Positions 2,520 through 18,233 of a stretch of DNA of 19,522 bases are shown piece after piece. Source of the stretch: Candidatus Altarchaeum sp. (GTDB taxonomy: Archaea; Altiarchaeota; Altiarchaeia; Altiarchaeales; Altiarchaeaceae); assembly GCA_018260755.1 (NCBI GenBank), contig JAGTWP010000023.1, positions 1 to 19,522 on the forward strand. Direction: 5' to 3'. A program made the position numbers and the translations under genes. Position 1 is the stretch's first letter, and the number at the start of each line of letters is the position of its first letter. The notes below the pieces were generated by a model, which ran no database searches, was not told the origin of the DNA, and was given only the letters and a program-made list of their open reading frames with translations.

Positions 2520-2585
2520 ATGAAAATCGTAAGGGTAATCTTTTCACCTGAAGCTGAAGAAGTTTATAATTATTCAGAAGATTAA
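2520..2585 (+). pseudogene. 5' fragment of a RelE/ParE-like toxin
   Basis: The ATG at 2520 opens MKIVRVIFSPEAEEVYNYSE, the typical first strand and helix of RelE/ParE-superfamily toxins ('FSPEAEEVY'), but the frame stops at 2583-2585 after 21 residues where about 80-100 are expected. No continuation is seen. The fragment ends where the convergent minus-strand gene ends (2582), so the rest of the toxin was probably lost when the minus-strand array was joined here. It follows the broken antitoxin with a 2-nt gap, as an intact TA operon would. Confidence 0.6.
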
Positions 2586-4213: not shown

Positions 4214-5145
4214 TTTATGACTCGTTGTTTATATCTTACAAGATCTACATTCATAGTGTTAAGATTTTCATACCACAACTGAAACTTTACAGTTATTCTC
4301 TTTTCTATATCTATCCAAAAAAGTTTTTTATAGTTTACACTACATTTTTGATTTGTGCAGCTTTTCAACCTGCTTTCTACTTTAAAACAATTTCTTCCAT
4401 TTATCTTTTCAATATCTTTAACCTCATAAGTTTCTTCTCTAATTTGATTTAAATTTTTTTTGACTACAGTATATTTTCCATTGATATCACCAATATTTCC
4501 CGTACTGTTCTCTTCTATTTTTTCTGTCCATTTTAAATCTTTTGACAATTTCAACATCCATGGATAGTATATACTAAAACGATCTAATTCACCACCTACT
4601 ATTTCTCCATTTTCAGTATTTATATATTCAATTTCCTCTGAACTAATCATAGTTCTCCTTATGGGGTGTACTACTCCATTAATATTTATATAACCCGCAA
4701 TTACTTGTACTGTGCCATCTGGTGAAATTAAATACCAGTCAGTTTTATTTATCTTTTTTCTATCTTTAACTTCAAATGTCACATTAAAATAAATATAATC
4801 GTTTATAATTACATTTGGATCGTATGGCATAGGTGCAGAAGGATACTTTATATTATAAGTACATTTTTCACCTATTTTAAAATTTGGTTTTGAAGTTAGT
4901 GGATAATTTTCCAATGTAGATGTTTTTATTGAGGAAAAGGTGATGTTTTCTCTTTCCTTTATTTCTTTTATATTTTCTTCGGTTAAGATTAGAGAGGAAT
5001 TATCAGTAGAATTATTATTGGTGCTGGGTTGATGTGGTTTTTCAGCAGGGAAATTTTGAAAAACGAAAGCATACAACATAACAACAAGCATTAAAAATAC
5101 AAAAATTCCAATACTGTACTTTTTTATGCTCTTCGCGGAGGACAT
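4210..5145 (-). CDS. Membrane-anchored paralogue family protein
   Basis: A 311-residue member of the locus family. N-terminal membrane segment at residues 11-30, then a polar Asn/Ser-rich linker, then the family landmarks: 'KPNFKIGEKCTYNI', 'YYPWMLKLSKDLKWTE', 'GRNCFKVESRL' and 'WIDIEKRITVKFQLWYENL'. The C-terminal block recalls the beta-rich LolA/DUF3108-type lipoprotein-carrier folds, but that is a loose resemblance. It differs from its relatives in carrying an extra Cys pair ('KSCTNQKC') in the C-terminal block. It overlaps the next gene by 4 nt (ATGA), so the two are co-transcribed. Unlike most paralogues it has no secreted-peptide gene directly upstream. The role is unknown. Confidence 0.8.
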   Translation of the reverse strand: MSSAKSIKKYSIGIFVFLMLVVMLYAFVFQNFPAEKPHQPSTNNNSTDNSSLILTEENIKEIKERENITFSSIKTSTLENYPLTSKPNFKIGEKCTYNIKYPSAPMPYDPNVIINDYIYFNVTFEVKDRKKINKTDWYLISPDGTVQVIAGYININGVVHPIRRTMISSEEIEYINTENGEIVGGELDRFSIYYPWMLKLSKDLKWTEKIEENSTGNIGDINGKYTVVKKNLNQIREETYEVKDIEKINGRNCFKVESRLKSCTNQKCSVNYKKLFWIDIEKRITVKFQLWYENLNTMNVDLVRYKQRVIK

Positions 5146-5591
5146 TTAATACAATTTGATTGAATATTTCGTTTATAGTCCACACATCTATTTGTTAACT
5201 TGGAATTTTTAACCATTTCTAAATGAAATTATATCCATTTAATCTAATTTTACTATATTCTGTCGTGCTAATGGGATATAAATATTTGAAGTTTTGCAAA
5301 TTTTAAAATTCAAGTACAAACCCAAATATAAATTCAAGTTCAAACATCAAAATGCAAAACACAAAAGTTCAATGATAATAAGCATATGGGCGAAGAATAT
5401 AATTAATCATGGATTGTTAAATATGAGCAAACAGATTATGAAGCGTATATTGAATGTAAAATGTTAATAGATTCACTATAATAAAATTTCTCTATCAACC
5501 CCGGTTTTTCATACGTATGACTCTACAAGAGAGCAATAATTTTAAAAACCAACAAACAACCCAGGTTATGTTGCTACAATGACTTATACTA
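5146..5591. other. Intergenic region with dispersed repeat and gene debris
   Basis: 446 bp without an intact gene. It holds one copy of the ~110-bp dispersed repeat (5288-5395), a short plus-strand open piece reading 'SWIVKYEQTDYEAYIECKM' up to a TAA near 5482 that may be debris, and a perfect 12-bp palindrome TCATACGTATGA (5509-5520). The TATA-like stretch near 5270-5285 on the minus strand is rather far from the start at 5145 to be a confident promoter. Confidence 0.5.
5288..5395 (+). repeat. Dispersed ~110-bp repeat, copy 1
   Basis: Runs from GAAGTTTTGCAAATTTT through AATTCAAG, AAATATAAATTCAAGTT and ATGCAAAACACAAAAGTTC to ATATGGGCGAA. It matches copies at 11980-12087 and 18125-18233 with a few substitutions and short indels, all in the same orientation. 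No ORF of useful length and no terminal inverted repeats are seen. This copy lacks the 22-bp TCTTATGTTGATTTTCACTGA motif found ahead of the other two. Confidence 0.85.
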
Positions 5592-6470
5592 TTAAATTTC
5601 AGACACAAGTTCCAAGCTACTAACTTTAAGATTTTCATAATACGCATCGCTCTTAACTAAAATTCTTTTTTGAGCATCTATCCATTTTATTTCTCTGGAT
5701 ATTACCTCATTATTTTCGCCTATAATGCGCTTCTCAACTTTATAACATTCCCTATTTTTGATTTTATCTGTTCCTACAACTTTCAGTACAATTTTTTCTA
5801 TTTTGCCTTCTCCAACAAAACTTTTTATTTCCATTTTAAATTCATTGTCCAATGAAAGCATCCAAGGAGAATACATAATCATTGCATCATATACTTCGGA
5901 AATCTCTGAAGGAACATCTGCAAAATACTCTTTCTTATTTGTTTCAACACCTTTTTCAACATTTGCCTCACTAGAAGTAAATCTTATTATTTTTCCTGTT
6001 TCTGTAGATATGTAATAAACCAGTCTTAATACTTTACCCGGTGACAATGGATCGGATTTGTTGGCAAGAAACAAGTTAACACTTTCTATAACATAACATT
6101 CCATATTCCTCACTCTTTCTTTTTTAACCACAGAATAAGTAATTTTTTGAACGCCTTGAGTTGTGTAATCAGGACTCCGTCTACTAATTCTTGAACTGTA
6201 TCCTATGTATTCAAATTTATCTCCTACTTTAAATGCAGGTTTTGTATTATGAGGAATCTCATCAAAAGACAGGTTAAATCTACTTAGAAGTTCTGTTCCA
6301 TTTATTACTCCATTTTTATCTTCCAAAAAATAAGCTGTTGAATTCTCCGCCGAATAATTTATTGGAATAGGGTGATTCTGCTTGACATCACTTAACAAGG
6401 TGTATCCTCCAATCAATAATAATGCTGCACTAATTATAAGCCCATTAGTGAGCCCGCTTTTATATTTCAT
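5592..6470 (-). CDS. Membrane-anchored paralogue family protein
   Basis: A 292-residue typical member of the locus family. Membrane segment at residues 7-26, 'KPAFKVGDKFEYIGYSS' (77-93), 'MECYVIES' (123-130), 'MYSPWMLSLDNEF' (199-211), 'RECYKVEKRI' (240-249), 'WIDAQKRILVKSDAYYENLK' (263-282). The two cysteines in 'ECYV' and 'ECYK' recur in the paralogue at 7629 and could form a disulfide. The start at 6470 has a GGAAGAT purine stretch 4-10 nt upstream. It follows a small Cys-rich secreted protein gene (6614-6871), separated by a long hairpin. A partner, immunity or receptor role toward that product is inferred only from this repeated arrangement. Confidence 0.85.
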   Translation of the reverse strand: MKYKSGLTNGLIISAALLLIGGYTLLSDVKQNHPIPINYSAENSTAYFLEDKNGVINGTELLSRFNLSFDEIPHNTKPAFKVGDKFEYIGYSSRISRRSPDYTTQGVQKITYSVVKKERVRNMECYVIESVNLFLANKSDPLSPGKVLRLVYYISTETGKIIRFTSSEANVEKGVETNKKEYFADVPSEISEVYDAMIMYSPWMLSLDNEFKMEIKSFVGEGKIEKIVLKVVGTDKIKNRECYKVEKRIIGENNEVISREIKWIDAQKRILVKSDAYYENLKVSSLELVSEI

Positions 6471-6505
6471 TTTATCTTCCTTAAACTATAGAATAAAAAA
6501 TAAAC

Positions 6506-6569
6506 GCGCCCCATTTTTTGGTACTGGTAAAACAAGCAATATTTTTACCAACACCTATAAAAGGGGCGC
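6506..6569 (-). terminator. Long hairpin plus T-tract after secreted-peptide gene
   Basis: GCGCCCC (6506-6512) pairs with GGGGCGC (6563-6569), and an inner TGGTAAAA pairs with TTTTACCA across a short loop, with GGT/ACC outside it. On the minus strand the hairpin is followed by TTTATTTTTTATT. It ends 36 nt before the start of the membrane-anchored gene at 6470. It may be a terminator of the peptide gene, an attenuator with partial read-through, or an mRNA 3'-end stabiliser. Confidence 0.6.
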
Positions 6570-6613
6570 TAAAATTAAAAAATTTTATATATTAAGTGGT
6601 TTTAGCCAGCCTC

Positions 6614-6871
6614 TTACCATTCCGTGTACCATTGGTATCCGGTATATCCATAACACCAATTAGTTCCATAAAAACTCTCCCAGTACTCTGCACCCTCTAA
6701 ATTACCACACACACAATAACTGCCGGTATCTATAGTGCACTGGTATCCGGTTAATGATGGGATACCAACATATTTACAGAGTGCATTGCCAGCATTTACC
6801 GAACTCGCCGTCATCCCAAGTATTGCTATTCCAACCAACACTACTAAAAACCCGGTTTTTAATTTATCCAT
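6614..6871 (-). CDS. Small secreted Cys-rich protein 1
   Basis: 85 residues. MDKLKTG followed by a hydrophobic core and TASSVNA|G is a clear signal peptide (about residues 1-27). The mature ~58 residues carry five cysteines (32, 45, 53, 55, 73) and are rich in Tyr, Trp and Gly, with the ending 'GYTGYQWYTEW'. The leader is almost identical to that of the protein at 8609 (57 bp of identical DNA from codon 15 to 13 nt upstream), and Cys32 in '(L/F)CKY' and Cys45 align, while the rest diverges. It follows the decayed editing-domain/winged-helix gene and precedes a membrane-anchored paralogue. It could be a secreted bacteriocin-like peptide or a small surface protein; no known family was recognised. 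Confidence 0.75.
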   Translation of the reverse strand: MDKLKTGFLVVLVGIAILGMTASSVNAGNALCKYVGIPSLTGYQCTIDTGSYCVCGNLEGAEYWESFYGTNWCYGYTGYQWYTEW

Positions 6872-6905
6872 CTTCTTACTTTTTATTTAATTTTTTTTAT
6901 TAATT

Positions 6906-6915
6906 GATATATAAA
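6906..6915 (-). promoter_or_regulatory. TATA box for secreted Cys-rich protein 1
   Basis: On the minus strand TTTATATATC lies 34-44 nt upstream of the ATG at 6871, a near-canonical archaeal TATA box. The same sequence is duplicated at 12114-12123, where the peptide gene is missing. Confidence 0.6.
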
Positions 6916-6925
6916 TTGTACTGAA

Positions 6926-6966
6926 CAATAAATAAAATGTGATATGAACTTTTGTTCCATTTATTG
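6926..6966. promoter_or_regulatory. Inverted repeat upstream of the TATA box (candidate operator)
   Basis: CAATAAAT (6926-6933) and ATTTATTG (6959-6966) are perfect inverted repeats; overlapping GAAC and GTTC half-sites lie between them. The repeat sits just upstream (minus strand) of the peptide TATA box and just after the winged-helix gene, and is repeated unchanged at 12134-12174. Binding by the winged-helix protein is a guess. Confidence 0.35.
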
Positions 6967-6983
6967 GTTTTGATTTTCATGAT

Positions 6984-7544
6984 TCATAATGATTTAAACC
7001 ATTCTGTTAGTTTTATTGTGTGGGCCCTAAACATTCTGTCTATTTCAACAACTTTGTTTTCTTCCAATTTCCTTAATGCATTTGATAAACTTGATCTTGA
7101 AATTCCTGTCTCTCTTGCAACTTCATTTCTTCTTAGAACACATCTGTGAAATAATAATGTTCTGTAGCGTTTCAATAAAATATTTACAAATCATAATTAC
7201 ACATATTTGTAAAAAAATAGAAGTTTCGCAGTCATTAATCTTTCCTCATAGGGAAGTAATATTAATGTTAATGTTTTTATGAAACTCTATACTATATTGC
7301 CTGAAAGATGTGTATAAGGATAAATAGCTATGCTTTTGGCATTAACCTTGCTGTAAACATCTTTTATATTATCTATTGCTTTGTTTAAAATTTCGATTTT
7401 GTTTTTTTCATCATCCTTTTCAACTGCTGTAAATGCAACCAAACATTCCTCGCTTTCTAAATTTTTCTCTTTTATTTCATCTGCGTCTGCTTTTTTCTTA
7501 ACCTCAATCTTTATGTAGTCCGCATAGGTAAATAAAATTTTCAC
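6984..7544 (-). pseudogene. Decayed copy of ThrRS-editing-domain/winged-helix gene
   Basis: A second copy of the gene at 12192-12890. A GTG at 7542-7544 can start 85 residues of the editing domain, through 'AIYPYTHLSGNIV', before a stop at 7287. The winged-helix end survives as a separate 63-residue frame (6984-7175). About 264 bp of the intact copy (12372-12635) is replaced here by ~132 bp of unrelated sequence (7164-7295), which contains a TTTACAAAT/ATTTGTAAA inverted repeat (7183-7213). The flanking DNA is nearly identical to the intact copy (277 bp at 6887-7163, about 200 bp from 7296), so the damage is recent. The winged-helix piece might still be expressed as a small DNA-binding protein. 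Confidence 0.8.
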
Positions 7545-7628
7545 TTTAAATTCAAACTGATACTTGAAACTTAACCAATTAAGAACATAGAAAATAGCAC
7601 ATAAAAATAAAATTAAACACAAAATTTT

Positions 7629-8525
7629 CTAAAGACCAGAATAATCTATCAAGTTTACCTCTCCGACTTTTAAGTTTTCAGAGTATGTTTCTGCCTTTAC
7701 TAAAACCCTTTTTTTAATATCAACCCATATATTTTCTCGTAGAAGAACATGCTTGTTTTCATCTAATGCTCTCAGCTCAACTTTAAAACAATCTCTGTTA
7801 TTTATCTTTTCTTTTCCAATCACCTTAAGCACACTTACAAAAGTGGTTTTTATGCCTTGACCATTTTCATTGATTTGCATTTCAAAATTATCATCTAATG
7901 CCAACATCCAGGGATAGTAAATAATGTTGCCATAAATTTCAGATGTTTCATTAGGCGTCATTGCTTCTGAAGAAGGCGTTTCTATTACTTTTCCATTCTG
8001 CTGAATCATGCTCTTTCGCGCGCTCATTTTTATAATTTTTCCCGTATCTTTGTCTACCCAATCCTTTGTTTCTGAAATGGTTGCTTTAAGCGGAGAATTA
8101 TCTGGTAGGGATTTTTGTATTGTTGAAACAAGCACATAGCAATCCGTTCCATTAATCCTTTCCAATTTTTCAACCATGCATTCCAAAATACCATTTATGT
8201 TTCCAGAATTATCCTTCGGATTAAGCGAAGAACCATATGTTGTATATTTAAATTTATCTCCAACCTTAAACTGTGGTTTTATGTTGTGCTCGGGTGCTGT
8301 AAATTTTATTTCTTTTGCGCGTTTTTTTACATTTTCTGTGAAATCCACATATTTTTCAACAGAGCTGTTGACTGTGTTTGAGCTGTTTGTTGTATTTGAA
8401 TGCTCTATTTCAGAGTTATTGCTCAATATTAGATATGTTGAAATTAACCCAACAATTACAATAAAACCAATAACAAAAATAAAATTATTTACTTTCTTTT
8501 TTTCCATTTTTAAAATAGATGTCAA
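7629..8525 (-). CDS. Membrane-anchored paralogue family protein
   Basis: A 298-residue family member with the membrane segment at about residues 13-34, then an Asn/Ser-rich linker and 'KPQFKVGDKFKYTTYGSS' (83-100), 'DCYVLVST', 'YYPWMLALDDNFEMQ' (near 195), 'RDCFKVELRALDENKH' (near 243) and 'WVDIKKRVLVKAETYSENLK'. The true start may be the second Met (codon 7, position 8507), because MEKKK directly precedes the membrane segment. The stop lies close to the decayed editing-domain gene downstream. It follows secreted Cys-rich protein 2 (8609-8872), repeating the secreted-product then membrane-partner order. The cysteine pair (DCYV, DCFK) matches the paralogue at 5592. Confidence 0.85.
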   Translation of the reverse strand: MTSILKMEKKKVNNFIFVIGFIVIVGLISTYLILSNNSEIEHSNTTNSSNTVNSSVEKYVDFTENVKKRAKEIKFTAPEHNIKPQFKVGDKFKYTTYGSSLNPKDNSGNINGILECMVEKLERINGTDCYVLVSTIQKSLPDNSPLKATISETKDWVDKDTGKIIKMSARKSMIQQNGKVIETPSSEAMTPNETSEIYGNIIYYPWMLALDDNFEMQINENGQGIKTTFVSVLKVIGKEKINNRDCFKVELRALDENKHVLLRENIWVDIKKRVLVKAETYSENLKVGEVNLIDYSGL

Positions 8526-8608
8526 AAATTAGAAGTCAAATAAAAAATAAAATAAAAAAAATATTGAATTTTTCTCTAGTTTTTACAAATATCTCTTTTT
8601 TATTACTA

Positions 8609-8872
8609 TTAACAGTTGAACCCGAAGTAGTAAAAAGTTTCCCTATATATACAAAAAGTTATGTATTGGTTATACATCCAATCATCACACGCGATGTTAT
8701 TTATACAATAACCGTCTCCACAATCTGTATACGCATCACAATAGGATCCTATACTACTCCCTCCATTGTGATACTTACAAAATGCAGAATCTGCACCTAC
8801 ATAGGTTGCTATTGCTCCTATCACAATCATTCCAACCAACACTACTAAAAACCCGGTTTTTAATTTATCCAT
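8609..8872 (-). CDS. Small secreted Cys-rich protein 2
   Basis: 87 residues. Its first 14 residues, MDKLKTGFLVVLVG, are identical to those of the protein at 6614. The signal peptide probably ends around 'YVGADSA'. Seven cysteines (32, 45, 51, 56, 62, 74, 87); Cys32 in 'FCKY' and Cys45 align with protein 1, and the last residue is Cys, as in protein 3. The mature part is otherwise unrelated in sequence, aromatic and Asp-rich ('DCGDGYCINNIACDDW'). The 57-bp identity around the start codon with the 6614 gene implies a recent duplication or gene conversion of the leader. The membrane-anchored paralogue at 7629-8525 follows after 83 bp of T-rich spacer. Function unknown; a secreted effector or small surface protein. 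Confidence 0.75.
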   Translation of the reverse strand: MDKLKTGFLVVLVGMIVIGAIATYVGADSAFCKYHNGGSSIGSYCDAYTDCGDGYCINNIACDDWMYNQYITFCIYRETFYYFGFNC

Positions 8873-8898
8873 CTTCTTACTTTTTGTTTTTTAATCGT

Positions 8899-8908
8899 AT
8901 TATAAAGT
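8899..8908 (-). promoter_or_regulatory. Candidate TATA box for secreted Cys-rich protein 2
   Basis: On the minus strand CTTTATAAT lies about 27-36 nt upstream of the ATG at 8872, consistent with a short-leader archaeal transcript. Confidence 0.45.
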
Positions 8909-9048
8909 ATGAGATTTGCTTGTCGGGAAAGTATAACAAAAAACCAACCATTTTAACAATTAATAATAATCAATATATTTTAAATAATTGATTTGCCCGA
9001 AGGGCTTTCTTGCAAATTTTACAATACTGATTGTTGTTATAGGAAAAG

Positions 9049-9282
9049 GTGGTGTCAAACGCATTGGGGGATAAAAGCAAAAAGAAGTGTCAGAGATATA
9101 AGAGAAGACATGCGAAAAATGTATTTGTTTATCTGCTTAAAAAATTAAGTGTGAAAAAATCACCGCGCTGTTGCTCGGAGATTTTCAAAACTCTGGGTTT
9201 TGAAAATAATTACAAAATCAAATATGGCGAGGCAAAAATCCAGTTAGCTAAACAAATACAAATAATTCATTGCCATCAATAA
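9049..9282 (+). CDS. Doubtful small Lys/Arg-rich ORF
   Basis: A 77-codon plus-strand ORF with a GTG start, very basic and with cysteines at several positions ('KKKCQRYKRRHAKN', 'KSPRCCSEIF', 'IIHCHQ'). The surrounding ~370 bp between minus-strand genes has no other candidate, and another plus-strand frame just upstream reads 'IVVIGKGGVKRIGG', so this may be debris of a transferred gene. It contains a perfect 11-bp inverted repeat (9181-9191 and 9197-9207, 5-nt loop). Its end overlaps the convergent gene at 9248 by 35 bp. I do not recognise it. Confidence 0.25.
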   Translation: MVSNALGDKSKKKCQRYKRRHAKNVFVYLLKKLSVKKSPRCCSEIFKTLGFENNYKIKYGEAKIQLAKQIQIIHCHQ

Positions 9283-10048
9283 ATTTGAAGGTATTTATGC
9301 TGTGATTAAACTCATTAATGCTTAAATTGAAATATTCGGATAATGAAGTATATGAGAGAGAATAAAAGTAATCCCCTTTTTTGGTGATTATATTTATTTT
9401 TTTTAACTCACCATCCCCATACGGATGCACAGAGATTATTTTTTCAGCACCCAAATACCCAAGTGTTGCATTTTCAAAATATATCTCTTTTGTTTCCCGC
9501 CTATTTGTTATTTCAAACCCCACATCATGAAGGGTCTGTTCATTGTAGGTGGAAGGAAATACATTAATGCTGATAACATTAAACCAAGCATTTGTATTCT
9601 CGTTACCTTTAAATAGTATTCCATTTTCGTGTTTTGAAATTACCCACTCGTTTGGAATTTCTACCGAAAAGTTTAGTTTGTTATCCAGATAAAATGAATG
9701 ATTTTGAGAATAATTAAAAATAACACAAAGACCATAATTACAACTGAAATTTTCTTTACACCCACAGTCCTCACAACACGTTTTCTCATTTTCATTATTA
9801 TCGCGATTGCAAACACTATCACCACAATATCCCTCTTCTATAATTTTTTGATATCTGGAAATATCTTGTTTGCTCTTGGATAAATTTAACGAACCATTTG
9901 TGTGCTCTTTTAACATTTCGTTATTCGCTATATCACCACCGAACTCATTATCTAAGCTGTTCATATTTAAAAATGCGATGGATGCTCCCATGATAAGTAT
10001 GAATACAAAAAATACCAAAATTTTTAAACTTGATTTATGCACTTTCAT
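9248..10048 (-). CDS. Membrane-anchored Cys-rich plus PsbP-like protein
   Basis: 266 residues. Membrane segment at about 9-28, linker to residue 70, Cys-rich motif at 74-108 (CGDSVC, then CCEDCGC, then C and C), and a PsbP/Mog1-like domain at about 118-262 ('LNFSVEIPNEWVISKHENG' at its start, 'DYFYSLSYTSLSEYFNLS' near its end). It is a stand-alone equivalent of residues 353-543 of the protein at 2582-4213, so that protein looks like a fusion of this kind with the paralogue family. Its start overlaps the end of the upstream paralogue (10035) by 14 bp, implying one transcript. Probably extracytoplasmic; no activity can be assigned. Confidence 0.8.
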   Translation of the reverse strand: MKVHKSSLKILVFFVFILIMGASIAFLNMNSLDNEFGGDIANNEMLKEHTNGSLNLSKSKQDISRYQKIIEEGYCGDSVCNRDNNENEKTCCEDCGCKENFSCNYGLCVIFNYSQNHSFYLDNKLNFSVEIPNEWVISKHENGILFKGNENTNAWFNVISINVFPSTYNEQTLHDVGFEITNRRETKEIYFENATLGYLGAEKIISVHPYGDGELKKINIITKKGDYFYSLSYTSLSEYFNLSINEFNHSINTFKFIDGNELFVFV

Positions 10049-10952
10049 AGTTTTTCAATTCAATTGTCTCGGTTAAAATATTATCCTCTTTTCTCTCCAT
10101 TTTTACAAGTATCCGCTTCTCAGTATCTATCCAATAAGTAATGACCTCTCCTGAAATCCTTTTCCCACCACCACCTACAATTTCTGTCTTAGACATAACT
10201 AATACTTTAAAACACTCTCTTCCATCTATTTTTTCTATATTTACTACTGTCCACTCTTTCTCGAACATAATCTGCCTTCCACCGGGGTTTGACACCTTTT
10301 GTTCTTCAACCCATCGCACTCCTTTATCCAGATACAACATCCATTTCGCGTACATCCCATACAAAACAGGGCAATTGGAATATATATCAATTATATGCAC
10401 CTCGCCACTCTCTTCATTTATACCTAATGTGCCCCCCTCATATACTGTGCCTCCCGATCTTATTGATGATGATCTTTCTTTAGAGGTACCATTTTCGTCT
10501 ATCTTTGATACTATAGTACCACCTCCCGTCATTACTTTTTTTTCCCATAAACCATCTTCATTCTTCTTTAGAATTTGTTTGTAAACAGAAACATTCTTTG
10601 ATTGCATTACATAATAATTGGTTTTATTTATTCTATCTATTTTTTTCACCTCAATCACTGTATCATACTCTTCAGGCATGAAAATAACATTTTCCCTGTC
10701 AGATAGCTTTCTCAATCTACGGTAATAATATTTTACCCCTACATCAAATTTTGGATTCGCGGTTCGTTTGAGTTCTCCAAAAGTAGAAGTATAGGTTTCT
10801 ACAGAAGTTACACTTTCTTCAATAATTGCACCATTTCTACCACTTTCTTTTTGTTCATTATTATTAAGATTCAAAATAATAAACCCTCCAATAATTATTA
10901 ACACTATTGCCCCTACAATTGCTGTAGGTATCATAATATTCTTATATGCCAT
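10035..10952 (-). CDS. Membrane-anchored paralogue family protein
   Basis: A 305-residue family member: membrane segment at residues 8-28, 'NPKFDVGVKYYYRRLRKL' (near 66), 'YAKWMLYLDKGVRWVEEQ', 'GRECFKVLVMSKTEI', 'YWIDTEKRILVKMERKEDN'. It is more divergent than the 5592 and 7629 copies: the first family cysteine is replaced ('TNYYVMQS') and Gly-rich insertions occur ('VGGGGKRISGE'). It follows secreted Cys-rich protein 3 (11085), with a hairpin and T-tract between them that ends 40 nt before this start, the same geometry as at 6506. It overlaps the downstream Cys-rich/PsbP-like gene by 14 bp. Confidence 0.82.
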   Translation of the reverse strand: MAYKNIMIPTAIVGAIVLIIIGGFIILNLNNNEQKESGRNGAIIEESVTSVETYTSTFGELKRTANPKFDVGVKYYYRRLRKLSDRENVIFMPEEYDTVIEVKKIDRINKTNYYVMQSKNVSVYKQILKKNEDGLWEKKVMTGGGTIVSKIDENGTSKERSSSIRSGGTVYEGGTLGINEESGEVHIIDIYSNCPVLYGMYAKWMLYLDKGVRWVEEQKVSNPGGRQIMFEKEWTVVNIEKIDGRECFKVLVMSKTEIVGGGGKRISGEVITYWIDTEKRILVKMERKEDNILTETIELKNYESA

Positions 10953-10981
10953 TTTTTATACTTATTTATTTACTCTTTTTA

Positions 10982-11033
10982 AAAAATAAAAGGGGACTGT
11001 TGAAAAACCATTTAAAGATAATTCAACAATCCC
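10982..11033 (-). terminator. Hairpin plus T-tract after secreted-peptide gene 3
   Basis: On the minus strand GGGATTGTTGAA pairs with TTCAACAGTCCC (one mismatch, 17-nt loop), followed by CTTTTATTTTTT. It lies between the peptide gene (stop at 11085) and the membrane-anchored gene (start 10952). It could terminate or attenuate transcription between them. Confidence 0.6.
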
Positions 11034-11084
11034 ATAATCAATGTTGTCTATGTTGGTGTGGCATAAAACCACTCTTATGTATAA

Positions 11085-11468
11085 CTAACAGCCATAGTCC
11101 ACTACAGCGTAGTTATAGTAAGATGTCGCATCCAGCCACATCCAATCTCCAGTACAACTAACATGTGCCCAATAAGATGAGGTCGGTCCTGGCCAAAGTG
11201 TCCCATCGTCCATTTTTCCCTTTGCATAACCATCATACTGCCCACATACTGTTGCAAGACAACAAGATGCTGTAGAACCCACACCAGATGCGGAATCGGC
11301 GTCAGTGTTACTTCCGTCTGTTACTATGCAATTCGCATATGCCCCAGCACTCACGGAACTTGCAGTCATCACCACCATCACTATTCCAATTGCCATTACC
11401 AAAATTCCTGTTTTAAAGTCCATAATACAACTTTTACCTATATTTTTATTTAATTTATCCATTTTCAT
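11085..11468 (-). CDS. Small secreted Cys-rich protein 3
   Basis: 127 codons from the first ATG, but the protein that aligns with its relatives starts at MDFKTG (position 11423, 112 residues), which gives a standard signal peptide ending 'MTASSVSA|G'. The longer form begins MKMDKLNK, as if the MDKL start of the other peptides were kept with an inserted stretch, so the start is uncertain. Using the 112-residue numbering, cysteines lie at 32, 54, 55, 60, 90 and 112; Cys32 is at the same place as in proteins 1 and 2, and Cys is the last residue, as in protein 2. The mature part is Gly/Asp/Tyr/Trp-rich. A hairpin terminator and then a membrane-anchored paralogue follow. Confidence 0.72.
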   Translation of the reverse strand: MKMDKLNKNIGKSCIMDFKTGILVMAIGIVMVVMTASSVSAGAYANCIVTDGSNTDADSASGVGSTASCCLATVCGQYDGYAKGKMDDGTLWPGPTSSYWAHVSCTGDWMWLDATSYYNYAVVDYGC

Positions 11469-11549
11469 ATTTTAAATTTTATATATTTATTTATATTTTA
11501 TATATATTTTATATTTATTTGTTTTTTGAGACATCTATTTTAAAATACC

Positions 11550-11602
11550 CTCATAGAAGCCATATCTCATTACCTCTATGAGCCCACCCATATCTCTATG
11601 AG
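11550..11602. promoter_or_regulatory. Repeated TCTATGAG / CTCATAGA boxes
   Basis: CTCATAGA (11550-11557) is the inverse of TCTATGAG at 11575-11582 and 11595-11602; the two direct copies are exactly 20 bp apart, two helical turns. CATATCTC also occurs twice (11561, 11589). The cluster is 82-134 bp upstream of secreted protein 3. Such phased boxes suggest a transcription-factor site, though the factor is unknown. Confidence 0.35.
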
Positions 11603-11643
11603 CTCAGTCATATATGGTGCAAAAATTTTACTGTCTTTATTTT

Positions 11644-11652
11644 ATCACCTCC
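11644..11652 (-). other. Strong Shine-Dalgarno without a clear gene
   Basis: GGAGGTGAT on the minus strand is a perfect anti-16S match, rare in this window, but no ATG/GTG/TTG at normal spacing opens a frame of useful length. The nearest ATG, 30-odd nt on, gives an 11-codon ORF (MTELIEIWVGS). It may be the relic of a lost gene or a leader peptide. Confidence 0.3.
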
Positions 11653-11757
11653 TTAAATCTTTATTTTATTTAATTTTCCCATTCCAGGGCGATTTTCATT
11701 CAGGGATACATTGCTGTGTATCTCTGTCCATCTAATCATTCGATTTCAAAAATTTAT

Positions 11758-11991
11758 TTATTGATTGGTGTTATTTTTGATTGGTGTTATCTTAAGGAGA
11801 TTTTTCTCACCCTCTTTCTTTTTATCAGTAAATTTTATTTCTCCCGGTTTAAAACCCTTTTCTATAAATTCGTGACCAATTCTGAATGTTTTTAGGTTGT
11901 AATTAAATCCTAAACTTTCAAGATTTAAAATTATAACGCTCTTATGTTGATTTTCACTGATAGAGATAAACACATTGTTGAAGTTTTGCAA
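11758..11991 (-). pseudogene. Unrecognised 77-codon ORF, probably a gene remnant
   Basis: The first ~18 codons (MQNFNNVFISISENQHKS) come from the dispersed repeat and its 22-bp companion, not from the gene itself. The rest, 'LESLGFNYNLKTFRIGHEF' and 'FKPGEIKFTDKKKEGEK', looks like genuine coding sequence but matches nothing I recognise. The 3' end carries a 16-bp near-perfect tandem duplication (11761-11776, 11777-11792) that may have shifted the original ending. The gene seems truncated at both ends. A promoter copied from the peptide locus (12114) points toward it through the repeat. Confidence 0.4.
11938..11962 (+). repeat. 22-bp satellite motif, copy 1
   Basis: TCTTATGTTGATTTTCACTGAT, about 20 bp ahead of an AAGTTTTGC that begins the ~110-bp dispersed repeat. 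Other copies are at 12906 and 18084, each also followed after ~20 bp by AAGTTTTGC. Confidence 0.8.
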
Positions 11992-12087
11992 ATTTTAAAA
12001 TTCAAGCACAAACACAAATATAAATTCAAGTTTAAATACACTAAAAATGCAAAACACAAAAGTTCAATGATGATAAGTATATGAGCG
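11980..12087 (+). repeat. Dispersed ~110-bp repeat, copy 2
   Basis: Same sequence as 5288-5395 and 18125-18233 with scattered substitutions. It is preceded by the 22-bp motif at 11938 and abuts, within 8 bp, the 277-bp duplicated block (12095-12371), so it marks a rearrangement junction. Confidence 0.85.
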
Positions 12088-12113
12088 TTATTTTTTAATT
12101 TTTTTTATTAATT

Positions 12114-12123
12114 GATATATAAA
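12114..12123 (-). promoter_or_regulatory. Duplicated TATA box now pointing at repeat DNA
   Basis: Same TTTATATATC (minus strand) as at 6906-6915. At 6906 it serves secreted protein 1; here the next 120 bp downstream is the dispersed repeat. The flanking inverted repeat CAATAAAT/ATTTATTG is also present (12134-12174). Confidence 0.45.
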
Positions 12124-12191
12124 TTGTACTGAACAATAAATAAAATGTGATATGAACTTTTGTTCCATTTATTGGTTTTGATTTTCATGAT

Positions 12192-12890
12192 TCATAATGA
12201 TTTAAACCATTCTGTTAGTTTTATTGTGTGGGCCCTAAACATTCTGTCTATTTCAACAACTTTGTTTTCTTCCAATTTCCTTAATGCATTTGATAAACTT
12301 GATCTTGAAATTCCTGTCTCTCTTGCAACTTCATTTCTTCTTAGAACACATCCGCGAAATAATAATGTTCTAACTATCACCGCTTCATTATAAGACAATA
12401 CTTTCATTACATTTTCCATTCCTTGAGTTATCTTAATTTCTGCGTTTTCTTTTTCAACTTTAATCTTGCATGATTCACATAATTTACTAAGCGGATGCAA
12501 TGCCTCATCATCCTTACATTTTATCTCAAATCCATTGAAATATCCGAATGGTGCTTTAATTACCTCTAAATTTTGCCCTTTTAAATTTTCATAAATTTCT
12601 TGTAGTATTTCCCTTACAAATTTCGGACTTGACAGATTGCTTGAAAGATGTGTATAAGGATAAATAGCTATGCTTTTGGCATTAACCTTGCTGTAAACAT
12701 CTTTTATATTATCTATTGCTTTGTTTAAAATTTCGATTTTGTTTTTTTCATCATCCTTTTCAACTGCTGTAAATGCGACCAAACATTCCTCGCTTTCTAA
12801 ATTTTTCTCTTTTATTTCATCTGCATCGGCAATTGCTTTTCTCTTATCATTTATCTTTACGTAGTTCGCATGGATAAATAAAATTTTCAT
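12192..12890 (-). CDS. ThrRS editing-domain / winged-helix fusion protein
   Basis: 232 residues from the ATG at 12890 (the frame opens further up at 12998, but that part is repeat-derived). Residues 1-137 are the archaeal threonyl-tRNA synthetase N-terminal editing domain (a D-aminoacyl-tRNA deacylase-like fold): 'MKILFIHANYVKI', 'LVAFTAVEKDDEKN', 'YPYTHLSSNLSSP' (77-89), 'APFGYFNGFEIKCK' (113-126), 'HPLSKL' (132-137). Residues ~160-232 are a winged helix ('LRRNEVARETGISRSSLSNA', 'LRKLEENKVVEIDR'). No synthetase catalytic or anticodon domain follows. From memory, family members have WYK and HPLSEL at the active site; here they are YFN and HPLSKL, with a 4-residue insertion, so the proposed catalytic Lys and Glu are lost while the His of 'YxHLSS' is kept. 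I infer a regulator that uses the pocket to sense an aminoacyl ligand. C138xxC141 might bind metal. Confidence 0.85.
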   Translation of the reverse strand: MKILFIHANYVKINDKRKAIADADEIKEKNLESEECLVAFTAVEKDDEKNKIEILNKAIDNIKDVYSKVNAKSIAIYPYTHLSSNLSSPKFVREILQEIYENLKGQNLEVIKAPFGYFNGFEIKCKDDEALHPLSKLCESCKIKVEKENAEIKITQGMENVMKVLSYNEAVIVRTLLFRGCVLRRNEVARETGISRSSLSNALRKLEENKVVEIDRMFRAHTIKLTEWFKSL

Positions 12891-12905
12891 CTTAAAATGG
12901 TTTTT

Positions 12906-12930
12906 GCTCTTATGTTGATTTTCACTGATA
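12906..12930 (+). repeat. 22-bp satellite motif, copy 2 (without the long repeat)
   Basis: GCTCTTATGTTGATTTTCACTGATA followed by ~20 bp and AAGTTTTGC, where the similarity to the ~110-bp repeat stops (the next bases are CTGACAGG). It lies directly upstream of the editing-domain gene start, so this may be a truncated repeat or the original junction. Confidence 0.75.
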
Positions 12931-12966
12931 AGGATAAATGTGTTTAAAGTTTTGCCTGACAGGTGT

Positions 12967-13845
12967 TTATTTTTCATCAACCAACTCAATACTACCAATT
13001 TTCAAATTTTCTATCCAGCTTTCTGCTTTGACCAATATTCTTTTATTATAGTCAATCCATAAAGTCGCCCTTTCAGAAATTTTATTATTTGTAGCAACTT
13101 CGGTTCCTAACATATCTGCACGGGTTATACTTTCTTCTTCCACCTTATAACACTTTTTCTTCCCATCTTTAGTATCAATTTCTTCCACCCCAATAACCTT
13201 ATATCTTTCGCTGCTTGCAATTTTGCCTGCCATAGTCATGTTTTTATTCCATTCAAAATTTTCACTTAATGCGAGCATCCATGGTTGAACAATTATGTCT
13301 GGCTTAAAATCCATAGCAACAACATAAGATGAAAATGGCCCCCCTCCATCGTTTTCGTTGTCACCTAAACTTATTTCCTGTACATCAGAAGACCTACTTA
13401 TTGATGCTATTATTCTTCCATCTTTATCTATTGTCACCGCCCCACTCATGTTTATCTCTTCTTCTCCAAGATTTTCATATTTTACTTTTGAAACATATTT
13501 CAAAACAAAGACATCTTTTTTATTATATCTTTCTTTTCTATCTACAGTAATGTCTGTGCTTCCTGACATTTTCGTGTCACCTCCCGTCAAGTTCAAGGGA
13601 GATGCAAATTTATATTCATATTTATATTCATCACCAACCATCAATTGCAAATCAGTAGTTTTTTTAAGTTCTCCTGCATGAATTTTAATATCAGGAATAA
13701 AAACTGATGTTGGTTCAATGAAATTATCGCCGTTTGTATTACTTGGCGGACTTGGTTGGTATGGATTTAAAATTAAAAATCCTCCTCCAATTACCAAAAT
13801 AGCCACAATTAAAATTCCTATCGGAACAATATATTTATTTGACAT
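12967..13845 (-). CDS. Membrane-anchored paralogue family protein
   Basis: A 292-residue family member: membrane segment at residues 6-27, Pro/Ser/Asn linker, 'LQLMVGDEYKYEYKF', 'VQPWMLALSENFEWNKN', 'KKKCYKVEEESITRA', 'WIDYNKRILVKAESWIENLK'. It lacks the first family cysteine ('KDVFVLKY'). It follows the matrixin gene (14025-15155), the fourth case of a secreted-protein gene directly upstream of a family gene, and precedes the editing-domain/winged-helix gene. If the family acts as partner or inhibitor, its partner here would be the metalloprotease; that is inference from position only. Confidence 0.85.
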   Translation of the reverse strand: MSNKYIVPIGILIVAILVIGGGFLILNPYQPSPPSNTNGDNFIEPTSVFIPDIKIHAGELKKTTDLQLMVGDEYKYEYKFASPLNLTGGDTKMSGSTDITVDRKERYNKKDVFVLKYVSKVKYENLGEEEINMSGAVTIDKDGRIIASISRSSDVQEISLGDNENDGGGPFSSYVVAMDFKPDIIVQPWMLALSENFEWNKNMTMAGKIASSERYKVIGVEEIDTKDGKKKCYKVEEESITRADMLGTEVATNNKISERATLWIDYNKRILVKAESWIENLKIGSIELVDEK

Positions 13846-14024: not shown

Positions 14025-15155
14025 TTAGTATCCATAGATGTATCTTATGCCATAAATATCTCCACAGTAAATGTTTCTTTTCTTTGTTTCACCTATGCTG
14101 GCATACCCATACATTGTCTCTTCGCTAGCGGAACTAATATATAAATCATTTAACTGTAACCAGTGTCCAAATTCATGTGCTGCAACATTCCACACATCAT
14201 ATTGATTAATAGGACAAGTACCTGTTCCAGCATACCACGATTCTGCCCCATCAAATTTTATATCTGCTTCTGCTATCCACCATGGCCACCACCAGTGATA
14301 CCATATAGTTGTTTGAGCTAATGTGCCACCTGGACCATCAATTGTTCCACGACATACAGTACTATATCCATCCTGAATAGGACCACCTCTTCCTGTGCTT
14401 CCATGGTCCTGAAAAGAGAACTTTGCAACACCGTTCCACGCGAATGCACCGTTGTCAACCGAGGTACTCCAAGTGTCTGGAACATTTTTGTAAAATTGCA
14501 CATAAACATTGCCTCCTAGTATCTGAGTCCATTTTCTATCTGAATATGAATAATAACAACCAGTTGTAGTCGCAGCAGGCATCTCATTCCCAGCCGCAGA
14601 CTCAACATCATATAACGGATCTTTGTTTCTCTGTTGAAGTGCATCGATAAACTCTTTGGCGCTTATATTCCTATTCAATTCTTTGTTTATGGCTCTGTCT
14701 CCTTCAATTGTGTATTTTCCCTGAAAACGACTCTTTAGAATAAAACCCTTTCCTTTATCTTCCCTACTCAAAAAGAGCAATACTTTTTCGCCGGATACAA
14801 ATTCAGGTTCACCCTCAACCCATTGTTTCAAGTCACCAACTTCCCCGCCTTGTATTTTCACGATTACTTCTCTTTCAATTTTTTTACCTTTAACAACTTT
14901 TTCAATTCCTATAGTCACATTTGTATAGATGTTGGTTTTATTGTCATCCCACGCACTTTTCACCTCTTTTACATTACCTACAACAATGTAATTTGCTTCA
15001 TCTGTGAGTTCATTTAAATTTTTCTCAAGCATCAATGCGGATACACTACTTGCTGTCATTCCTAAAATCAATAGTGCTACCACTATTGCTATCTGCCCAA
15101 CCCTTTCAACCGCTCTCTCATGGGCATTGGCGGTATTTTTTATTATATGTGCCAT
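14025..15155 (-). CDS. Secreted matrixin-type zinc metalloprotease
   Basis: 376 residues. A long N-region (MAHIIKNTANAHERAVERVG), then a hydrophobic core ending 'GMTASSVSA' (residue 40), is a signal sequence. Residues 41-180 form a beta-rich N-terminal domain often seen ahead of prokaryotic matrixins ('EANYIVVGNVKEVKSAWDD', 'EGEPEFVSGEKVLLFL'). Residues 205-376 are the metzincin protease: zinc site HEFGHWLQLND (327-337; His327, Glu328, His331, Asp337), Met-turn 'EETMYGYASIGETKKRN' with Met348, and the closing 'DIYGIRYIYGY'. The third ligand is Asp rather than His, as in some metzincins, and the usual Gly after the second His is Gln334. The first 24 codons and the upstream region are shared with the gene at 15509. 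It may process neighbouring surface proteins. Confidence 0.9.
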   Translation of the reverse strand: MAHIIKNTANAHERAVERVGQIAIVVALLILGMTASSVSALMLEKNLNELTDEANYIVVGNVKEVKSAWDDNKTNIYTNVTIGIEKVVKGKKIEREVIVKIQGGEVGDLKQWVEGEPEFVSGEKVLLFLSREDKGKGFILKSRFQGKYTIEGDRAINKELNRNISAKEFIDALQQRNKDPLYDVESAAGNEMPAATTTGCYYSYSDRKWTQILGGNVYVQFYKNVPDTWSTSVDNGAFAWNGVAKFSFQDHGSTGRGGPIQDGYSTVCRGTIDGPGGTLAQTTIWYHWWWPWWIAEADIKFDGAESWYAGTGTCPINQYDVWNVAAHEFGHWLQLNDLYISSASEETMYGYASIGETKKRNIYCGDIYGIRYIYGY

Positions 15156-15201
15156 TTTGTTTTGTTTAATTTTTATTTTATATTTTTATATTTTTTCAAA
15201 T

Positions 15202-15285
15202 TTATTTCGGCATTCTGTTGGGATCCCCTGTGGGTTCTCTCTTCATGAAGTTGATCCCTATGTATTTAACACACAAAAACTCCAT
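15202..15285 (-). CDS. Conserved 27-codon upstream ORF, copy 1
   Basis: ATG at 15285 and TAA at 15202, ending 46 nt before the matrixin ATG. It begins MEFLCVKYIGINF and ends KREPTGDPNRMPK. The copy at 17817-17900 encodes the same peptide except Leu4 to Trp, and has one synonymous change in the second codon. It is richer in G+C than its surroundings. It may be a regulatory leader peptide, or the leftover end of an older gene carried with the cassette. Confidence 0.45.
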   Translation of the reverse strand: MEFLCVKYIGINFMKREPTGDPNRMPK

Positions 15286-15380
15286 GAATCACCAAACCCA
15301 AAACAATTTTTCGCTGTTTTGTTATCACATCCTTAGTTTTTTAAAATTTTAAAATTTTAAATTTTTTTAATTTTAAACCT

Positions 15381-15508: not shown

Positions 15509-17764
15509 TCACAATGATGCCAGCAACTTCTCGATATATTTTATCATATTCGCATTCTTTGAGGGGGTTATGTATGCTCCTTTGTCAGTGTATCGCTCCT
15601 GATTGCTTTCCCGTCTTATTTCATCCAAGTGGAAACCATATTTAGTATATGTCAAATCTATGATAGTCATTCCAACAAGTTCGTCTCCTTGTTCATATTT
15701 TTGGAATAAGAGAGGCCATGTAGTTTTATCTTGTTCCTTGCAGTATCTTAGAAATTCCTCATATTGTCTGGATTGAGTAAACATTCTTGGGTTACTAATA
15801 AAGATTAGACTTGGGTCATCTAATGTTTCTTTCCACGCTTCATATTTAATATTGAATTCCTGCTTAACTTTCTCTGGAATATTCTCCATCAAATTCGATT
15901 GTTTGTTTTTTTCATCTTCTGATAATTCAATTTTTTCTATTATCGTCAAATCGCGTTCTATGGATTCTTCAAAAGTTATGCCTCCCCCATTTTTTTGGTT
16001 AGAAGCCCCTGAGGCATATGTTCCATTCCATCTATAGTATTTATCCACATCTCCATAAATGCTGCCATTTAGCCCATGCCTTGGATGAAAGGTTCTCATA
16101 TTCCCACCTGGTTTGCTTTCCCAATCATAACCATGAGGGTGGTCGTTCCCCGGTTTTCTTACTGAACCATGTGTATAAACGCCACTCTTGGACCATAAAT
16201 CAACAATGGAATTATCATAGGTTGCTCCACTTCGCGTATAGTCCATTGCACCACTATATCTTGGAGGATTATTTCCATAAAAGTTATCAAACGCAGTTAG
16301 TGAATTCGGATCATACCATAGATTTCCATCATTCTCAGGTGGCCAGAAGTACCTTCCCAAATCTGTGCGTCCTCCTGACCAGCTTATGCAGTTATAAGCA
16401 GATGATGCTGGTGCCGACTTAATAGCATCGTCAGCTTTAAGATTTGGAAAGGAACTACCCGTAATATTGCTATTATCAAGTTTCATATACAAATCAGCAG
16501 TCCCTGTTGGATTATAAGAACTGTAACTCGAAACAATGGCATAATTAATATCTGGTGAAAACTGCTTTTTAACTCTTGATGCAAGACCCCAATAGAAATC
16601 CCCAGACCCATCATAGTCATCGTTGAATCCTTTTATTTTGCCTGGCGAATAACTGCTATCTTCTAACCACAGACGACTATCACCAGTAAGTTTGGCCGTA
16701 AAATAATTCAATATTCCCGTCTTGGAGATGCCGCCGCTATATGCTTGAGTTCCAGCGAGTGCAACATTTGAGGTATACAGAGAACCATCTTTATACAAAT
16801 CTGAAGTTCCGGGGAAACTGGAACTATATGATCGAAGCAGCAAATAATAAATACCTGTATTTGGGATAGTAACACTTATTTTTGATTGCCATCCAACCCC
16901 TCCATCATCGTTCGACCATGAACCACCATTGACTGGATCATTGTAATTGAACAAGAACATGACGGGATCGGATGCATAGGGATCACTTTTCTTAGTTTCG
17001 AAAACCACATTCTGACCACTGGTGAAGTAGAAACTCTTGTAGTAAGTATACTTAAAGTTCATGTTCAATTGGTATACATAATCGCCTTCAGGATTATATG
17101 TCGGCATCGTTTCCCTCCCCATTTGATTTTCCCTCTTCAATTGTTTGTAATTACCAGGTAAAGATTTTGCCTTTAGTGTATTCATGTAATTTCGATAATT
17201 ATTATCTGATAGCATCGCTTTATCCTTTTGTTTCGCTAATTGAATGAATTCAATCTCCGGTATGTCCTGACTTCTAAAAGACAATTTATGTGTTCCTTTA
17301 GAGAGATATATTGAATTAAATGTTTCCCTCTCTAATAATTGAGCAGATTGCCAACCATTCTTATATATATTTAGATGTCCTATGGGATTTGCTCCATCAT
17401 CGAGATATACTTGAATCTTTTCTTGTCCGTTGATGCCCATGACCCATGCAGTTATGTAATATTTTCCATCCTCTCGAACATCAACTTCGAATTTTGTGCA
17501 TACATTTTTTCCATCAATAGATATCTTCTTATTATTCAAAATAGCTTCACCACCACGACCATCGTCTACAAAATATTTTTCTATTATTTCTGGAACCTTT
17601 GCTGAATTGTTCCCTTCGTTTCCATCGTCGTGTCCCTGAGCATTCACAACTGCAAATACTACTCCAACCAGAAGTGCTAATAGCACTCCATATATTGCTA
17701 TCTGCCCAACCCTTTCAACCGCTCTCTCATGGGCATTGGAGGTATTTTTTATTATATGTGCCAT
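15509..17764 (-). CDS. Large secreted multidomain protein with PPC-like repeats and Cys/His domain
   Basis: 751 residues. It has the same first 24 residues as the matrixin, then a hydrophobic core to about residue 42 ('FAVVNAQG'). Residues ~62-178 resemble a CBM6-like jelly roll ('IYLSKGTHKLSFRSQDIPEI'). Residues 228-340 and 350-436 look like two PPC-type beta domains ('WSNDDGGVGWQSKISVTIP', 'GIYYLLLRSYSS'; 'INYAIVSSYSSYNPTGTADL'). Residues ~450-580 form a domain with invariant-looking Cys459 ('YNCISWSGG'), His532 ('YTHGSVRKPG') and His560 ('WESKPGG...FHPRHGLNG'), which I place near the DUF7689-type families of secreted bacterial proteins; a Cys-His hydrolase is possible but unproven. Residues 590-751 are helical and charged. 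It has its own terminator and uORF-bearing leader. Confidence 0.75.
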   Translation of the reverse strand: MAHIIKNTSNAHERAVERVGQIAIYGVLLALLVGVVFAVVNAQGHDDGNEGNNSAKVPEIIEKYFVDDGRGGEAILNNKKISIDGKNVCTKFEVDVREDGKYYITAWVMGINGQEKIQVYLDDGANPIGHLNIYKNGWQSAQLLERETFNSIYLSKGTHKLSFRSQDIPEIEFIQLAKQKDKAMLSDNNYRNYMNTLKAKSLPGNYKQLKRENQMGRETMPTYNPEGDYVYQLNMNFKYTYYKSFYFTSGQNVVFETKKSDPYASDPVMFLFNYNDPVNGGSWSNDDGGVGWQSKISVTIPNTGIYYLLLRSYSSSFPGTSDLYKDGSLYTSNVALAGTQAYSGGISKTGILNYFTAKLTGDSRLWLEDSSYSPGKIKGFNDDYDGSGDFYWGLASRVKKQFSPDINYAIVSSYSSYNPTGTADLYMKLDNSNITGSSFPNLKADDAIKSAPASSAYNCISWSGGRTDLGRYFWPPENDGNLWYDPNSLTAFDNFYGNNPPRYSGAMDYTRSGATYDNSIVDLWSKSGVYTHGSVRKPGNDHPHGYDWESKPGGNMRTFHPRHGLNGSIYGDVDKYYRWNGTYASGASNQKNGGGITFEESIERDLTIIEKIELSEDEKNKQSNLMENIPEKVKQEFNIKYEAWKETLDDPSLIFISNPRMFTQSRQYEEFLRYCKEQDKTTWPLLFQKYEQGDELVGMTIIDLTYTKYGFHLDEIRRESNQERYTDKGAYITPSKNANMIKYIEKLLASL

Positions 17765-17816
17765 TTTGTTTTGTTTAATTTTTGCTTATTTTATATTTTT
17801 ATATTTTTATTCAAAT

Positions 17817-17900
17817 TTATTTCGGCATTCTGTTGGGATCCCCTGTGGGTTCTCTCTTCATGAAGTTGATCCCTATGTATTTAACACACCAAAATTCCAT
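17817..17900 (-). CDS. Conserved 27-codon upstream ORF, copy 2
   Basis: ATG at 17900 and TAA at 17817, ending 52 nt before the ATG of the 751-residue protein. It encodes MEFWCVKYIGINF and then the same C-terminal half as copy 1. The coding frame and both ends are intact in the two copies even though the DNA just upstream has indels. Confidence 0.45.
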   Translation of the reverse strand: MEFWCVKYIGINFMKREPTGDPNRMPK

Positions 17901-17972
17901 GAATCACTGAACCAAAACACAATTTTTGCTGTTTTTGTTATCACCTTTTTAAAGTTTTTTAAATTTTAAACC

Positions 17973-18083: not shown

Positions 18084-18105
18084 TCTTATGTTGATTTTCA
18101 CTGAT
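18084..18105 (+). repeat. 22-bp satellite motif, copy 3
   Basis: TCTTATGTTGATTTTCACTGAT, identical in its core to 11938 and 12906, ~20 bp ahead of the long repeat. Confidence 0.8.
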
Positions 18106-18124
18106 GAATATAGAATACATTCTT

Positions 18125-18233
18125 AAAGTTTTGCAAATTTAAAATTCAAGCACAAACCCAAATATAAATTCAAGTTCAAATACACTAAAAATGCAAAACA
18201 CAAAAGTTCAATGAGAATAAGAATATGGGCGAA
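18125..18233 (+). repeat. Dispersed ~110-bp repeat, copy 3
   Basis: Same unit as 5288-5395 and 11980-12087, in the same orientation. It starts AAAGTTTTGCAAATTT and ends ATATGGGCGAA. Copies 2 and 3 share the TACACTAAAAATGC variant; copy 1 differs there. Confidence 0.85.

Follow-up and report, generated by a model that had tools for sequence, protein, structure and literature searches.

The archaeal threonyl-tRNA synthetase (ThrRS) carries an N-terminal editing domain (ED; PF08915) with a DTD-like fold, structurally characterized in Pyrococcus abyssi (PDB-id: 1Y2Q), with an active-site histidine (H83) and a YPYxHLSS loop. In P. abyssi and Aeropyrum pernix the ED is a dimer and E134 is supplied across the interface (PMC4491819). 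The Y120A/E134A double mutant edits almost normally in these two species, and E134A is tolerated in both, whereas E135A in M. jannaschii loses activity; replacing K121 with methionine (K121M, or its equivalent) cripples editing in all three archaea, yet the mutant binds substrate analogues strongly (PMC4491819). The domain also occurs outside a full ThrRS: the free-standing ThrRS-ed of Crenarchaeota, a Ser-tRNAThr hydrolase (NF011500), combines the ED with an anticodon-binding domain and makes up for a ThrRS that has no ED of its own. The gene described here likewise encodes an ED that is not part of a synthetase, but its partner is a winged helix.

The gene (12192..12890, minus strand) lies in a 19,522-nucleotide stretch of a contig from Candidatus Altarchaeum, an archaeon of deep groundwater, hereafter the window, and encodes 232 residues followed by a stop when read from an ATG; the frame could also start at a TTG, which would extend it to 12998. 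Residues 1–138 (12477..12890, minus) form the ED, with a DTD-like fold; they match PF08915 in a profile search at 145 bits (cut-off 30.2, E = 2e-42) and the P. abyssi ED in a sequence comparison at E = 4e-29. A linker (residues 139–163; 12402..12476, minus) with a CESC motif, modelled at low confidence, leads into a MarR-like winged helix (residues 164–232; 12195..12401, minus) whose recognition helix is placed at about 196–208. The latter is assigned from homology and from the model: Pfam returns many weak winged-helix matches to the C-terminus, all below the curated cut-offs (HTH_Crp_2 21.5 and MarR_2 21.0 bits at best; cut-off 27). The AlphaFold model (mean pLDDT 70; ED blocks mostly 67–90; the linker region, 128–156, < 50) has two domains, and in it the ED fold is intact. 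Residues 1–134 of the model superimpose on the P. abyssi ED with Z-scores of 19.7–19.9 (2.0–2.1 Å over 129–130 residues), and residues 164–232 on the MarR-family winged helix 5HLI (1.3 Å over 68 residues, Z-score: 11.7). The class II catalytic and anticodon-binding domains are absent from the chain, in that NF003068 scores 151 bits against 484 and matches residues 1–164 only, and the whole-protein ThrRS-ed profile NF011500 scores 129 bits, below its cut-off of 362. The preliminary description of this DNA had recognized an archaeal ThrRS ED joined to a winged helix; the PF08915 match, the homology and model of the winged helix, and selection in two species (below) bear this out, and the predicted fold agrees with it in both halves.

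Clear relatives of the winged helix are found at the C-terminus of Altiarchaeal membrane-anchored proteins (L043 2401–3465, L044 3066–4022), whose winged helices end in WFKSL and are 48–52% identical to that of the fusion over about 79 residues. These proteins carry a signal sequence, an extracellular domain and a membrane helix in place of the ED; the fusion protein has none of the three, its N-terminus being the ED itself. MarR-family one-component regulators share the predicted winged-helix fold, although the fusion scores below their Pfam cut-offs and has an ED as its sensory part instead of the MarR dimerization helices. Human DUE-B, a DNA-unwinding-element binding protein (PDB-id: 2OKV), also has the DTD fold (Z-score: 13.1) and is linked with DNA in the title of its entry, but it lacks a winged helix and belongs to a different family.

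The window is a contig (C56) of a 1.32-Mb genome, 85% complete, whose named relatives are Ca. Altarchaeum (= Altiarchaeum) MAGs. A separate, complete ThrRS with an intact ED (YYK, HPLSEL) is encoded on contig C65 (L040 5480–7399). The fusion recurs in one further species, HURL_140 (G003, contig JAGWDQ010000104.1). Of its three copies there, one is intact, a second lacks the first 34 residues and a third is divided by a short inserted element whose ends are inverted; all three lie upstream of the complete thrS of that species, at a distance of no more than 10 kb. The position of thrS differs between the species, that of HURL_140 (L038 13996–15915) being beside an array of secreted-protein genes. 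The intact HURL_140 orthologue (L034:8001–8693) is 81% identical to the window copy over the full length, and the join, an insertion in the ED, E134K and the winged helix are common to the fusions of both species. The other two genomes searched from the genus (65% and 87% complete) have thrS only and no fusion. The thrS of MAG G001 (L042, G001:C38, 587–2475) has short deletions that break the ED frame, through assembly error or real decay. Scans beyond the genus took in about 650 further archaeal genomes. No other ED open reading frame with room for a winged helix was found in 29 Altiarchaeota or in 131, 94 and 109 genomes of other archaeal phyla; in a fourth phylum (295 genomes) there was none among the matches listed, a scan that re-listed only the multi-copy genomes and could let single unusual copies escape. 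Non-synthetase EDs in the scanned genomes either stand alone or carry a Cys-rich tail of about 40 residues. Two longer ED frames in other genomes proved to be contig-end pieces. A viral origin was rejected, there being no relative in viral contigs, as was a widespread fusion, the archaeal scans having yielded, among the matches listed, only the two species.

The fusion protein is, in our view, best explained as a chimeric one-component transcription factor in which the ED would act both as dimerizer and as a non-hydrolysing ligand pocket. Its architecture, selection and genomic context make this the best-supported mechanism, at a likelihood a little short of even. The features observed in or computed from the sequences are the fusion, the predicted two-domain fold, the two-species ancestry, purifying selection, the pocket substitutions and a conserved spacer. 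Against such a regulator, copies are often broken and only two species carry the fusion. In the proposed origin, an ED-bearing 5' portion of thrS would have been duplicated and fused in frame with the C-terminal winged helix of one of the Altiarchaeal membrane-anchored regulators, so that a soluble ED replaced a membrane sensor.

The editing pocket (numbered after the P. abyssi ED) was compared with those of 30 ThrRS EDs, in which H83, Y120, K121 and E134 are invariant (30/30). The window copy has H, F, N and K at these positions, so that only the histidine of the four-residue active-site set is kept. The alignment places A82T and the retained active-site histidine at T80 and H81 (12648..12653, minus), Y120F and K121N at F118 and N119 (12534..12539, minus), a four-residue insertion at residues 128–131 (12498..12509, minus), immediately before HPLSKL, and E134K, common to the sister-species copies, at K136 (12483..12485, minus). 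FGYFNGF and the insertion with HPLSKL thus occupy the sites of FGYYKGF/FGWYK and HPLSEL in ThrRS. The motifs called in the preliminary description are confirmed by this alignment, including the retained substrate-pocket motif YPYTHLSS and the change of HPLSEL to HPLSKL with an insertion; its WYK to YFN change is right as to YFN, but the parent motif in the genus is YYK. The pocket residues of HURL_140 are H, Y, K, K in copy A and H, Y, R, K in copy B, and the insertion has three residues there. H83 and the YPYxHLSS loop are retained in all fusion copies; Y120F and K121N are seen only in the window copy, a single gene in a single assembly. By this comparison E134K and the insertion, common to both species, are old and Y120F and K121N recent, K121N being placed late because the sister copies keep K (or R) at this position.

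Loss of catalysis had been suggested from the motifs. In the published work, two of the three archaea withstand the removal of Y120 and E134, whereas K121M is crippling. Such a loss is therefore plausible in the window copy, which has K121N, but it is not established, and for the sister copies it is unproven. Editing has probably been lost or is weak in the window copy, and may survive in HURL_140 because the orthologous copy keeps K121. A clade of stand-alone EDs in other archaea (L047 2522–2965, L055, L045 3426–3971, L046) comes close to the window copy, with H83 kept, Y120F, K121 lost and E134K/R. These chains have no DNA-binding domain and are distant in sequence from the fusion, so the pocket change is convergent, and because so distant a clade shows a similar change, the combination of Y120F, loss of K121 and E134K may represent an alternative, rebuilt pocket rather than decay. 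Members of this clade lie near a small methyltransferase gene in two genomes, and that of L045 immediately precedes an ArsR-type gene.

Proteins with such winged helices usually act as dimers. The ED could be a ready-made dimerization module and nothing else, in a DNA-binding protein that senses no ligand and whose pocket is drifting. The pocket does differ between copies and species (YFN, YYK, YYR), and the window ED has 16 derived residues compared with five in the ThrRS ED of the same genome. What makes us regard this reading as unlikely is that H83 and the loop persist in every copy, that the ED as a whole is constrained, and that the stand-alone clade independently gained its substitutions, which suggests a selected pocket.

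The fusion might instead be a trans-editing enzyme, its ED removing serine (or glycine) from mischarged tRNA and its winged helix aiding nucleic-acid binding. Archaea are known to have free-standing ThrRS editing proteins (PMC7373986), the intact HURL_140 copy retains H83, Y120 and K121, the E134A mutant of P. abyssi and A. pernix still edits (PMC4491819), and further EDs outside synthetases, with their pockets intact, are common. ThrRS-ed, however, accompanies a ThrRS without its own ED, whereas here the genome already has a full ThrRS with an intact ED on C65, so there is no missing editing function to fill. The window copy moreover has lost the lysine whose replacement by methionine is so damaging in three species (PMC4491819), and its C-terminus is a MarR-like winged helix rather than the anticodon-binding domain of ThrRS-ed (NF011500, 129 vs 362). 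Trans-editing is on these grounds improbable. Eight further loci (L051, L052, L053, L054, L056, L057, L058, L061) encode EDs with an intact WYK pocket and a zinc-ribbon-like Cys-rich tail of about 30–50 residues (CPYxGxxCDxxCPxC), another non-synthetase ED architecture.

Selection on the fusion was assessed between the window copy and HURL_140 copy A. The dN/dS is 0.19 for the ED, part of which signal could reflect change in thrS before conversion (see below), and 0.17 for the winged helix, which is free of that objection; the corresponding values for thrS are 0.12 (ED) and 0.08 (body). The excess of synonymous change is significant in both domains (Fisher p = 2e-9 for the ED, 5e-6 for the winged helix). 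Both are under purifying selection, and with dN/dS well below 1 in each the fusion protein is therefore functional now or was until recently. The preliminary description had allowed that the fusion might exist through a chance deletion at this locus only; a chance in-frame deletion or an assembly artefact was rejected, since another species, assembled independently, has the same join, and selection on it is purifying.

A second, degenerate copy, missed in the preliminary description, lies at ~6987..7622 (minus) and comprises ED residues 1–~84, a stop, and winged-helix residues 173–232; it sits where HURL_140 has thrS. Broken copies are thus frequent (this one at 7622–6987, the HURL_140 copy that begins 34 residues late and the insertion-split copy), HURL_140 copy C shares a stretch with thrS, and the window copy is a mosaic (both below). 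Such traits would be expected had recombination of thrS copies in an unstable array thrown off the fusion as a by-product, expressed or not, without function. Against this stand the one intact copy in each species and the dN/dS well below 1 in both domains, of which the winged helix could not have been corrected from thrS. We think a functionless by-product quite unlikely.

The mosaic was revealed by alignment of two ED–winged-helix genes with two thrS genes. At 23 informative sites, within nt 42–342, the window copy agrees with the thrS of its own genome; at 29 others, at 313 and 366–456, it agrees with the HURL_140 fusion. The third pairing has no site in its favour, and the positions of the two classes differ (Mann–Whitney p = 1e-9). 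Most simply, there was a single ancestral fusion, and thrS later overwrote its first ~115 codons by gene conversion, in the window lineage if not more widely; independent re-fusion at the same point appears less likely. In HURL_140 the stretch that copy C shares with thrS is 353 bp long and 99.4% identical, and exchange with thrS therefore continues there. The tree gives the window clade a support of 100 and places HURL_140 copies A and B poorly (46–76), so that conversion is firm for the window clade and copy C and no strong claim is made for A and B. Literature searches for an ED–HTH fusion or for synthetase-gene conversion returned nothing relevant. The fusion ED is 75% identical to the ThrRS ED of the same genome, which it follows through conversion; in archaeal ThrRS the EDs pair and share an active site (PMC4491819), and duplicated ThrRSs form mixed dimers in Anabaena (PMC4787780). 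All of this would suit a fusion ED that pairs with the ED of its own ThrRS and so brings the ThrRS, or its state, to DNA or titrates it, but the ED similarity may reflect gene conversion only, and we consider such pairing very improbable.

The candidate targets of the proposed transcription factor lie immediately downstream. The fusion gene is followed by a conserved spacer (12088..12191, minus) with a dyad, GGAACAAAAGTTC (12154–12166), and a TATA-like stretch, and the degenerate copy by its counterpart (6872..6986, minus; dyad at 6946–6958), which precedes a small secreted-peptide gene starting MDKLKTGFLVVLVG (6614..6871, minus), the type of gene presumed to be controlled. Behind the intact copy of the window the peptide gene is interrupted by a dispersed repeat. 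The spacer, about 110 bp, was found only behind the five ED–winged-helix copies in the four genomes searched. It is 94% identical between the species, gaps excluded, but another spacer in the locus reaches 96% on the same measure, and spacer conservation was accordingly not taken to prove an operator; once mismatches are allowed, the 13-bp dyad exceeds the chance level by little. Because that other spacer is equally conserved and MDKLKTG-type genes also occur without the fusion, we offer control of the peptide genes by the fusion protein as a hypothesis. The preliminary description had made the gene a candidate regulator of surrounding secreted-effector genes: the conserved spacer leading into a secreted-peptide gene is in keeping with this, whereas 'effector' amounts to signal-peptide-like starts and weak domain matches.

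The surroundings are themselves repetitive. An array of repeat units extends over 2582–13845 of the window (minus) and 4313–13878 of L038 (plus), its units being LolA/DUF3108-like secreted proteins, small Cys-rich peptides starting MDKLKTGFLVVLVG and the ED–winged-helix copies; the signal-peptide start and the upstream spacer are homogenized and the mature peptides differ, as in a cassette system. Through a 280-bp repeat (15084–15353 and 17693–17970, 92.5% identical), a matrixin-like protease and a DUF7689 protein have promoter and N-terminus (MAHIIKNT.NAHERAVERVGQIAI) in common, a second case of a shared leader with different mature proteins. The dispersed repeat (11940–12087, 18084–18231 and 5286–5398, ~90–91% identical) has one copy that interrupts the region just behind the ED–winged-helix spacer.

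As a regulator, the fusion protein would work as follows. The ED would dimerize the protein and hold the 3'-aminoacyl-adenosine end of an aminoacyl-tRNA or a related small ligand, in the window copy presumably without efficient hydrolysis, and the winged helix would bind promoters, in the first place the spacer that separates the stop codon of the fusion gene from the secreted-peptide gene. A more specific version, rather unlikely as it stands, has the transcription factor read the state of aminoacyl-tRNA through a retired pocket, either binding the charged 3' end or pairing with the ThrRS ED and passing the signal to a promoter, while conversion by thrS would keep the sensor matched to the tRNA-Thr system.

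If the regulatory reading is true, this would be the first aminoacyl-tRNA editing domain, as far as our searches show, to be wired in one chain to a DNA-binding domain, and transcription would respond to tRNA charging or proofreading with no kinase or riboswitch in between. The locus also captures evolution in progress, with the taking up of a domain, conversion between the new gene and that of its parent synthetase, and step-by-step alteration of the active site, in which E134K preceded Y120F and K121N, the last of these processes being paralleled in an unrelated clade of stand-alone editing domains.
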